Shown in pieces: positions 10,350 through 35,072 of a stretch of 64,000 bases of DNA. The translations under genes were made by a program, and so were the position numbers. Every line of letters begins with the position of its first letter. Position 1 is the stretch's first letter. The notes under the pieces are model-generated. The model saw only the letters and a list, made by a program, of their open reading frames with translations, was not told the origin of the DNA and made no database searches. This DNA comes from Bacteroidales bacterium (lineage in GTDB: Bacteria; Bacteroidota; Bacteroidia; Bacteroidales; Paludibacteraceae), in assembly GCA_015061185.1 (NCBI GenBank), contig SUWZ01000003.1, forward strand, positions 1-64,000. Reading direction: 5' to 3'.

Positions 10350-11078
10350 TTAGTTGAAAATCGAGTATTTATTCATGAAATTTTGAAAATTCTCTTTATA
10401 GGTGTCGGAGATTGGAATATACGTTTTCCCAAAAACAATTCGATTACGTTCAATTACCTTGATTTTTTGAGGTTGTACAATGTAGGATTTATGTACACGA
10501 ATAAATTGGTCGGAAGGAAGAAGTGCTTCCATAGATTTCATACTCATAAGAGATAGGATAGGGTATTGTTCACCCTCTACATAAATTTTTACATAGTCTT
10601 TTAAACCCTCTATATGAGTAATTTTATCCAATTCAATTTGAATCAGTTTATAATCAGTTTTTACAAAAATACTCTTTTTCTTTCCCTCTGAAGTTTCTTG
10701 AACTTGAGGAGTTCGTATCGCTTTAAACCATTCAAGAGCTTTGTTGGTAGCCGCTAAAAAATCGGCGTAATCAATAGGTTTAAGCAGATAGTCGATAGCA
10801 TTCACTTTAAAACCCTCCAATGCATATTGTTGAAATGCAGTCGTAAAGATTATCTTAGTTTCGTTGCTAACGATTTTGGCAAATTCCAATCCATTTAAAT
10901 CGGGCATTTGAATATCTAAAAAAAGAATTTCTGGAGTCTCTTGTTTTAATGTTTGAAAGGCTTCTATTGCATTATCAAATTTTCCGATTAATTCCAGGTA
11001 GGGAGTCTTTTTTACATAACTTTCTATCAATCCCAGAGCAAGAGGCTCATCATCTATAATCATACATTTTAGTGTCAT
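10350..11078 (-). CDS. LytTR-family response regulator
   Basis: Receiver domain (IIDDEPLALGLIESYVKKTP, ILFLDIQMPDLNGLEFAK) and LytTR domain (FIRVHKSYIVQPQKIKVIERNRI). Confidence 0.93.
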   Translation of the reverse strand: MTLKCMIIDDEPLALGLIESYVKKTPYLELIGKFDNAIEAFQTLKQETPEILFLDIQMPDLNGLEFAKIVSNETKIIFTTAFQQYALEGFKVNAIDYLLKPIDYADFLAATNKALEWFKAIRTPQVQETSEGKKKSIFVKTDYKLIQIELDKITHIEGLKDYVKIYVEGEQYPILSLMSMKSMEALLPSDQFIRVHKSYIVQPQKIKVIERNRIVFGKTYIPISDTYKENFQNFMNKYSIFN

Positions 11079-12250
11079 ATTTCATTTTTTATTATAGGGT
11101 TTATAATTAAAGTTGAATAATAAACGTTCTCTTCTACACCGGAGGTAAAAGAATGGTTAGAAGGGTATATTAATTCTAAACGACGTTTTAAATTTTCTAT
11201 ACCTATCCCGGAGCCACTTTTGTCTGAAGTAGTATCTTTAGGGTGATGACTGTTTTTTAATTTACAAACAATTGTTTGATTTTCATCCGTGTAAATATCA
11301 ATATGAATAAATGATTTCAATTGTTTATTTGCAGCAACTCCATGTTTAAACATATTTTCAACCAAAGAGATGAATAACAAAGGGGCAATAATTATATTTT
11401 TATTATTGTCCTGAATATTAACTTCTAATTCTACATTTGATTGGAGACGTAATTTCATTAATTCGATATAATTGGAGGTAAATTCCAATTCTTTACTTAA
11501 AGGAACAAACTCTTTATCGCTTTCGTATAGTACGTAACGGAGCAACTTGCTAAGTTCCATTACCGCTTCTTGTGATTTTTCTTGACTAATAGCGATTAAC
11601 GCATAGATATTGTTAAGCGTATTAAATAGGAAGTGAGGATTGAGTTGACTCTTAAGATTTTTAAGTTCAGCCTCAATTTCGGTTCTTCTTTTTTCTGCCT
11701 CTTTTTCTTTGTTGATATACCAATTGCAAGTGGTTTGTATTGCTATCGCCATTCCCACCATACAAACCAATGAGATGACGTTCCATATAATGTGCCACCA
11801 TAAGAATCTGGATTTTCTTTGGTTATGTTTATGCAAAGATTTCTTATTTTCATGTTTGGCTTTTGAAAGGCTTTTTGTTGAATCAATCCCGAGGGTAGAT
11901 GATGATTCTTGGACATTATTCTCCGGTTGTTGAACATGTTCTATCTTTTTCGCTTTTCGGTGAGGTGAAAAGTTGTTTTCCCAAACATGACCAACTCCGC
12001 AAATAACACCTATGACTATTGCATTAATGATGATAAACTGTTTTAGTTTTTCATTTAGGAGGTAGCGATTTATCAAAAATAGGTAGTTGAGATAAAAAAT
12101 AAAGCATAGTGAAATTGGTGTGTAAAGATACATCATATAGAAAGTTGTGTCGAACTCCTTGTTTTTTGTAAATAAAAAAAGAGGAAGCAAAAAGAGCATC
12201 AACCATGCGAAAATATGTATGAGTATTGTATAATTATTTTTCTTAATCAT
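11075..12250 (-). CDS. LytS/YehU-type sensor histidine kinase
   Basis: LKSQLNPHFLFNTLNNIYALI motif, C-terminal GIGIENLKRRLELIY; 4-nt overlap with regulator. Confidence 0.93.
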   Translation of the reverse strand: MIKKNNYTILIHIFAWLMLFLLPLFLFTKNKEFDTTFYMMYLYTPISLCFIFYLNYLFLINRYLLNEKLKQFIIINAIVIGVICGVGHVWENNFSPHRKAKKIEHVQQPENNVQESSSTLGIDSTKSLSKAKHENKKSLHKHNQRKSRFLWWHIIWNVISLVCMVGMAIAIQTTCNWYINKEKEAEKRRTEIEAELKNLKSQLNPHFLFNTLNNIYALIAISQEKSQEAVMELSKLLRYVLYESDKEFVPLSKELEFTSNYIELMKLRLQSNVELEVNIQDNNKNIIIAPLLFISLVENMFKHGVAANKQLKSFIHIDIYTDENQTIVCKLKNSHHPKDTTSDKSGSGIGIENLKRRLELIYPSNHSFTSGVEENVYYSTLIINPIIKNEI

Positions 12251-33233: not shown

Positions 33234-33450
33234 TGTTATTCTATTTTGTCAAAATCAACTTTATAGAACCTGCCTTAAAAAATTCTCATCAATCACTATT
33301 TAGATTTATTCTATAAACCTTTCAAAATCATCTCGAACTGATTTATAGAAAAATCTTAAAACCAACCTTATAATGAACATTTAATAAGCCCGTTTTGTTC
33401 CGTACTTCAAAAGTACTTATTTATGCTAAGATAAAAAAATTTATTTCTCT

Positions 33451-33479
33451 AATTATTCCTAAATTATTCCAGAAATCGC
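33451..33479 (+). repeat. 29-bp direct repeat copy 1 (AATTATTCCTAAATTATTCCAGAAATCGC) upstream of TAttTTTG
   Basis: Exact copy at 33621-33649. Confidence 0.9.
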
Positions 33480-33620
33480 CTCTATTTTTGCAATAAAGAT
33501 TTACGACTTGATTTAGACAAGGTTTAGTTTTATAGATTAGGTTGAAGTGAATAGGAAGAGAATTCATTTGTCGAATTAAGAACAGAATCAAGAGTGATAA
33601 AGAAAAAAATGGAGAATATA

Positions 33621-33649
33621 AATTATTCCTAAATTATTCCAGAAATCGC
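33621..33649 (+). repeat. 29-bp direct repeat copy 2, upstream of TAgaTTTG
   Basis: Exact copy of 33451-33479; same offset to a -7-like box. Confidence 0.9.
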
Positions 33650-33707
33650 TTTTAGATTTGCAGAAGAAAAAAGAAAAATAAATATTAACAATTAAATACT
33701 TACGATT

Positions 33708-34148
33708 ATGAATGCAAAAAGATTTATTATTGGATTGATTTTGATGGTTATGCCTATTGTATCAATGGCAGATGGTAAATTATCAAAGGATCCGTTGCCA
33801 GACAAGATTTGTTCGTTTTTGACAACTCATTTTCCAGATGTAAAGGTTGCATTTTATAAAATTGAAAAAAATATTTTAAGAATTGAATCTTATGATGTAA
33901 TTTTGACGGATGGAACAGATTTAGAGTTTGATGGCAGTGGAAATTGGACAGAAATTGATGGAGAAAAGAAAGCATTGCCTCTATCTGTAATTCCATCTCA
34001 AGTTCTTAAATATGTAAATGAGCATTTCCCGGATCAATTTGTGGTTTGCTTGGATAAAAAGAAGAGAAACCGCGTGGAGGTTCAACTTAATTCCGGATGG
34101 GAATTGTTATTTGATAAGAACTATCAAATAATTAATATAGAGGATTAA
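33708..34148 (+). CDS. PepSY-like (DUF2874-type) periplasmic protein
   Basis: Signal peptide; duplicated ...FLTTHFPDVKVAFYKIEK... / ...YVNEHFPDQFVVCLDKKKRNRVEVQLNSGWELLFD. Confidence 0.8.
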   Translation: MNAKRFIIGLILMVMPIVSMADGKLSKDPLPDKICSFLTTHFPDVKVAFYKIEKNILRIESYDVILTDGTDLEFDGSGNWTEIDGEKKALPLSVIPSQVLKYVNEHFPDQFVVCLDKKKRNRVEVQLNSGWELLFDKNYQIINIED

Positions 34149-34210: not shown

Positions 34211-34993
34211 ATGAAAAGAAGTTTGTTTTTAGTAGGTTTTTTGTTCTGTGTGATGGGTGTTTTTTCACAGAATGCATCAAAGGGAGCATTTAGTTGGGGT
34301 ATTACTGCCGGTGCCGGTATGGCTGATATGAGGTTTGAGAAAAAACTTGTAGATAAAGATCCTATTGCGAATATTCAAGCCGGAGTTGTGGTTGATTATG
34401 CAATTGTTGATAATTTCTTTTTGGAGAGTGGTTTAACCTTCCAACGCAAAGGTTATCATGTTGAGTCGGAATCTGATTTTAATTCGGCATTAGGTTCAGT
34501 AAGTACAAGTATAGATCAAACGGTTAATCTTTTCTATTTACAGTTGCCGGTATTGCTTAACTATCGTTTTAACATCGGACAAACAGTTGGATTGATTCCT
34601 CAAGTGGGTCCTTACTTTGCAGTGGGTGTTGGAGGAAAAACGAAGATTGAAACCGAAGTTGAAAATGAACCTATTAACGGGTATGAAACGGTTACTTATG
34701 ATGTAAAGAAGGAAGATTCATTTAATGATCAAAGAAGTCGTTTTGATTTAGGTTTACGCTTTGCTTTAGGTGTTGGAATTGCTTCTAATATGAAGGTGTC
34801 TGTTGGCTACGATTTGGGTCTTGTGGATTGGATTAAGAAAGAGTATAAAGCTTTTGATAAAGTTTATCAAGTGGAGAATAACAAGTCCAAAAATGGTTCT
34901 CTTTTTGCAACATTTACCTACTACTTTAATCAAAACAAGGGTAAAACCATAAATGAAAGTGCGACAATTGCTCCTGAAATTGTAACTGAGTAG
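34211..34993 (+). CDS. Outer-membrane beta-barrel protein (PorT-like family)
   Basis: Signal peptide, GITAGAGMADMRF, FLESGLTFQRKGYHV, LQLPVLLNYRF. Confidence 0.8.
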   Translation: MKRSLFLVGFLFCVMGVFSQNASKGAFSWGITAGAGMADMRFEKKLVDKDPIANIQAGVVVDYAIVDNFFLESGLTFQRKGYHVESESDFNSALGSVSTSIDQTVNLFYLQLPVLLNYRFNIGQTVGLIPQVGPYFAVGVGGKTKIETEVENEPINGYETVTYDVKKEDSFNDQRSRFDLGLRFALGVGIASNMKVSVGYDLGLVDWIKKEYKAFDKVYQVENNKSKNGSLFATFTYYFNQNKGKTINESATIAPEIVTE

Positions 34994-35023: not shown

Positions 35024-35072
35024 AGGGGCTATCTAATTTTGAGATTAGGTAGCCTCTTTCTATTTTTTTTGT
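35024..35072. terminator. Terminator between convergent genes (GGGGCTATCTAAT...ATTAGGTAGCCTC + T-run)
   Basis: Inverted repeat and T-tract. Confidence 0.7.

Follow-up and report, generated by a model that had tools for sequence, protein, structure and literature searches.

Within the window, i.e. the entire stretch of 64,000 nucleotides that was analyzed, a 29-bp box (AATTATTCCTAAATTATTCCAGAAATCGC) occurs as two exact copies, at 33451-33479 and at 33621-33649 on the + strand. Each copy is followed by a Bacteroidetes -7 element of the form TAnnTTTG, and both lie ahead of a PepSY_like/β-barrel gene pair (Table 1). A preliminary description had presented the two copies as an identical 29-bp box with -7-like boxes, forming two tandem promoter-like units before envelope genes, and the sequence bears this out: the copies are exact, and both TATTTTTG and TAGATTTG are present. 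No other occurrence with three or fewer mismatches was found in the window, and 100 shuffles yielded 0 matches; the organism's own genome (G000) holds no further exact copy beyond the window pair. The similarity of the two promoter copies reaches 42 nt at 90% identity, taking in the -7 element and the next GCA. As other promoters do not share the last letters of the box (TCGC), the exact 29-bp identity is probably a product of local duplication as well as of function, and exactness alone is thus not readable as constraint.

Table 1. Predicted regulatory elements and genes of the PepSY_like/β-barrel locus (window coordinates)
Feature	Position	Strand	Remarks
Operator 1 (predicted)	33456..33475	+	distal half-site TTCCTAAAT 33456-33464, proximal half-site TTCCAGAAA 33467-33475; 11-bp direct repeat; register from 18-genome consensus
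P1 -7 element TATTTTTG	33483..33490	+	from sequence; predicted start near 33495
P1-P2 segment, non-coding	33493..33620	+	127/128 identical to sister species G012
Operator 2 (predicted)	33626..33645	+	distal half-site TTCCTAAAT 33626-33634, proximal half-site TTCCAGAAA 33637-33645
P2 -7 element TAGATTTG	33653..33660	+	from sequence; predicted start near 33665
PepSY_like gene (PF11396, 89 bits)	33708..34148	+	146 aa; apparent N-terminal signal sequence
Outer-membrane beta-barrel gene OMP_b-brl_2 (PF13568, 73 bits)	34211..34993	+	260 aa; paired with the PepSY_like gene
Intrinsic-terminator-like hairpin	35024..35057	+	would close the PepSY-OMP unit; 1 found vs 0.9 expected in region shuffles

The segment separating the two promoters is closer to its G012 counterpart than are the adjacent genes (421/441 and 738/783 identical), and the DNA at 33260-33380 is barely alignable to that species. 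A leader RNA or riboswitch was considered for this segment and set aside, there being no Rfam match and folding only slightly above that of shuffles (z -1.7); no small ORF between P1 and P2 was seen by eye. The PepSY_like protein encoded downstream has relatives of known structure (3due, 3db7, 4qoa, 4poi, 3elg and 4dsd).

The anatomy of the box emerges from a comparison of 18 promoters outside the genus, with the consensus WTTYCMRWWTYWTTYCMRAATY-N7-AnnTTTGY, in which the distal and proximal halves are 0.81 identical at an offset of 11 and at most 0.49 identical at any other offset. The half-site defined by this cross-genus comparison is TTYCMRAWT, represented in the window by TTCCTAAAT and TTCCAGAAA. 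Thus, the 11-bp direct repeat described earlier holds up, but the register given to its half-sites, AATTATTCC, is wrong. A pair of half-sites set head to tail, 11 bp apart and ahead of a -7 element, is the arrangement of OmpR/PhoB-class operators, while the TAnnTTTG element (TAATATTG at the site on contig C70 described below), lying 8 nt past the proximal half-site at 4/4 sites of the own genome, is that of a Bacteroidetes primary-sigma promoter. No -33 TTTG is recognizable under the box, so that the promoter looks activator-dependent, with the site occupying the -33 position; the 11-bp-spaced repeat overlapping -33 supports the activator-type site previously suggested for that position.

Scans of the own genome relied on patterns rather than on a weight matrix. 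The preliminary description had called for a genome scan with AATTATTCC-N2-AATTATTCC, and this pattern gives good matches only at the two window sites; the remaining ones (2-3 mismatches) look like chance, and it was discarded as a regulon motif. A degenerate box, TTCCnAAATnnTTCCAGAA-N8-TAnnTTTG, does occur at two other promoters, namely those of a PepSY paralogue on contig C70 and of an operon on contig C8 coding for an OmpR-type response regulator (RR) and a PorY-family histidine kinase (HK). The C70 paralogue is 62% identical to the window protein and its promoter carries ATTCCCAAATCTTTCCAGAATTACATCCTAATATTGCA, with the layout of the window box. A composite pattern, TTCCNAAATNNTTCCAGAA-N8-TANNTTTG, was derived from the window and C70 promoters, with the C8 site left out of the design; allowing up to three mismatches, it recovered the window sites (0 mismatches), the C8 RR promoter (1), the C70 PepSY promoter (1) and a single 3-mismatch site, and its reversed control had 0 matches in this genome. 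The looser cross-order consensus finds the four main sites and three more, vs two control matches, and a pattern limited to the proximal half and the -7 element, with one mismatch allowed, was rejected as too loose, with 12 matches vs 6 in the control. Further PepSY_like paralogues on C42 (L057) and C3 (L061), one of them two-domain, have no box upstream and thus seemingly lie outside the regulon.

The C8 regulator combines Response_reg and Trans_reg_C domains and carries the box at its own promoter, placing it in the OmpR/PhoB class. Its kinase scores 442.4 bits against the PorY-family model NF052314 of NCBIfam (cut-off 350), with a hydropathy profile suggestive of membrane helices near residues 10-34 and 132-165. 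Besides the C8 protein, just two OmpR-type regulators turned up in the genome, one PhoB-like (C21) and one RprY-like (C20). The recognition helix of the C8 protein, DFVYSQVKNLRKKL, is conserved in its family, unlike that of either of these two, and accompanies the box across the order. In relatives, the kinase homologue commonly adjoins a PepSY_like gene, and PepSY_like, HK and RR genes are adjacent in many of them, just as a common box marks them in the own genome. In two genomes of the same genus (G006 and G014) all four genes form one operon, in the order RR-HK-PepSY-OMP, which includes a homologue of the window β-barrel gene (PF11396 and PF13568 were confirmed in G006) and has a diverged box ahead of PepSY. 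The window pair thus resembles one half of such an operon that has become detached but is still linked to the other half through the box.

Beyond the genus, a weight matrix trained on this genus only was run on PepSY promoters elsewhere, each against 200 dinucleotide shuffles, and beats all or nearly all of them at PepSY promoters of other genera and families. When the best-scoring PepSY gene per genome is counted, the box precedes PepSY_like in 19/20 genomes with a PorY-family kinase vs 0/18 kinase-negative ones (Fisher p 1.1e-9, a value that treats related genomes as independent, with about 11 families contributing box-bearing genomes). In the one exception, G105, a box precedes a different PepSY_like gene, which lies immediately after the kinase gene. 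Some genomes of this sample (G158 and G168 among them) were added by a second search that focused on another family and was undertaken once the association was already apparent. Two genera (g15 and g7) each include a genome with both kinase and box and a genome with neither. The box is also found at several RR promoters in other families, while some RR promoters of the family have no recognizable box (e.g. L070, L077, L078 and L080), suggesting that autoregulation is either not universal or effected via diverged sites.

A gene-blind pattern scan of 247 genomes returned 52 matches vs 5 for the reversed pattern. Among the perfect matches, 16/17 lie upstream of a PepSY_like gene and 1 upstream of an unrelated transporter, an enrichment that is not wholly independent, as the pattern was partly derived from PepSY promoters of the same sample. 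Sites that played no part in deriving the pattern also lead to PepSY_like genes in G203, G181, G078, G028, G088 (contig C26) and G228, and one further G203 site leads to the response regulator. One-mismatch sites additionally precede larger lipoprotein-like proteins in G071 and G101 (L204:927-961 and L205:1246-1280), one being a multi-domain PepSY_like lipoprotein of 427 aa and the other a lipoprotein-like protein of 321 aa that matches no Pfam family. Genomes of genus g2 share a common one-mismatch site (L217:950-984, L218:3070-3104 and G193:C7:83457-83491), closely downstream of which no reading frame starts in the two loci inspected; it is probably a chance occurrence within a conserved gene.

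Given the sites and their restriction to these genes, the operon linkage in relatives, the kinase co-occurrence across the order Bacteroidales and the outcome of the gene-blind scan, the boxes most likely serve as operators for the OmpR/PhoB-type RR and PorY-family kinase of C8, a two-component system that lies elsewhere in the genome and would control its own expression, a reading to which we assign a probability of roughly four in five. Binding by the RR, activation rather than repression, and feedback are what we infer from these sequence patterns. Under the proposed mechanism, the phosphorylated C8 RR would occupy the 11-bp direct repeat in head-to-tail fashion, covering the -33 region of promoters of the Bacteroidetes type. 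Three units would be activated in this way: the RR's own operon, the window's PepSY-OMP pair with its two operators, and the PepSY gene of C70. The role of activator is argued from the position of the site. The PepSY_like protein, presumably secreted to the periplasm, would then probably report to or restrain the kinase, closing a feedback loop in the manner of DbfQ acting on DbfS; such feedback is proposed by analogy with a system of another phylum, whose protein has the Pfam PepSY rather than the PepSY_like domain.

The same regulator and box could in principle work in the opposite sense, with PepSY and OMP made when the regulator is inactive, for a site overlapping the -33 region could block RNA polymerase. 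However, the want of a recognizable -33 TTTG under the box gives the promoter its activator-dependent look, and the regulator's own promoter has the same layout, rendering repression unlikely. The fixed distance between box and -7 element (8 nt separate TAnnTTTG from the proximal half-site at every site of the own genome) would also suit a bipartite promoter, in which an alternative sigma factor, and not a response regulator, would recognize the box. This we hold to be very improbable: an 11-bp direct repeat combined with the usual Bacteroidetes TAnnTTTG speaks for the primary sigma factor acting with an activator, and the box is linked to an RR/kinase pair, with no sigma factor seen in the loci examined.

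If the box is indeed an activator site, its reader might still be a regulator other than that of C8. OmpR-class proteins bind 11-bp direct repeats, a habit that would suit the PhoB-like and RprY-like proteins equally, these being the only other OmpR-type regulators found in the genome; but their DNA-binding domains, which are 0.26-0.27 identical to the family co-occurring with the box, disfavour them, and the box sits at the promoter of the C8 regulator and follows the kinase of that system, making either of the two a very improbable candidate. The preliminary description had suggested a dedicated regulator, possibly the LytTR response regulator of the window (10350-11078) or else an unlinked one. 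The former is a genuine LytTR protein, encoded beside a His_kinase sensor (10350-12250, - strand) in the same window. LytTR sites, however, are usually repeats of about 9 bp set about 21 bp apart, as against the 11-bp repeat here, no box lies near the LytTR operon, and across the order the box instead follows the PorY-family/OmpR-type system and marks that system's own promoter. The LytTR option can accordingly be given scarcely any credence, whereas the unlinked regulator gains support from the box at the C8 RR/HK promoter.

A precedent for the C8 circuit is presented by the PepSY protein DbfQ of Vibrio, which resides in the periplasm and, on binding DbfS, shifts that kinase towards phosphatase activity (PMC12714742). 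As in DbfQRS of Vibrio cholerae and in PA2658/PA2659 with BqsRS of Pseudomonas aeruginosa, a small secreted PepSY-type protein, a membrane HK and an RR are encoded together, whereas the Bacteroidales version differs in its PepSY_like domain (PF11396), its PorY-family kinase, the added beta-barrel and a dispersed regulon with a defined operator. The window protein matches only PF11396 and not the Pfam PepSY domain proper, and we thus regard the system as DbfQRS-like in its working without filing it as a member. PepSY-TCS neighbourhoods have been reported at >60-fold over chance in a survey that used the Pfam PepSY domain, and the text of that paper does not mention Bacteroidetes (PMC12714742); with the survey so defined, the PepSY_like version of Bacteroidales seems to have fallen outside it. 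Among the papers reached by our literature search, mostly those outside subscription, we found none that connects PorY to PepSY or that reports a PepSY-like two-component regulon in Bacteroidales.

With respect to PorXY-SigP of Porphyromonas gingivalis, the likeness lies in the kinase, which exceeds the NCBIfam PorY-family cut-off. In that species, PorY has PorX as its partner, and both are encoded by orphan genes (PMC4800418); the C8 kinase, by contrast, shares an operon with an OmpR-type regulator, and PepSY_like genes are what the box marks. The C8 kinase therefore departs from the orphan-kinase arrangement of the PorXY system that regulates type IX secretion (T9SS). A PorX-like protein (receiver plus PglZ, 515 aa) is nonetheless encoded in the own genome, on C10 (L171:1216-2763, - strand), away from the PorY-family kinase. 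The operator, for its part, resembles those of PhoB/OmpR-class activators that replace the -35/-33 element, in having an 11-bp direct repeat at -33 and, on the side of the protein, an OmpR-type DNA-binding domain, but departs from them in the half-site TTYCMRAWT, the Bacteroidetes -7 element and a recognition helix that is not of the own PhoB or RprY type.

Proteins with PF11396 are common in Bacteroidales and their structures have been solved, yet their function is unexplained; a conserved operator now connects many of them with a single signalling system, with a testable input and output. The regulon also offers a view on where PorY, the kinase known from work on type IX secretion, may have originated. 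We tentatively raise the possibility that PorY-family kinases of Bacteroidales generally sense for an OmpR-type RR whose main targets are periplasmic PepSY_like proteins acting as feedback modulators of the kinase, and that the orphan PorY-PorX pair of P. gingivalis could be a rewired offshoot of an ancestral PepSY circuit. Elsewhere in the Bacteroidales, a PepSY-like pair of Bacteroides thetaiotaomicron, BT_0922-0923, has been reported to be up under low iron and in colitis (PMC10434189).
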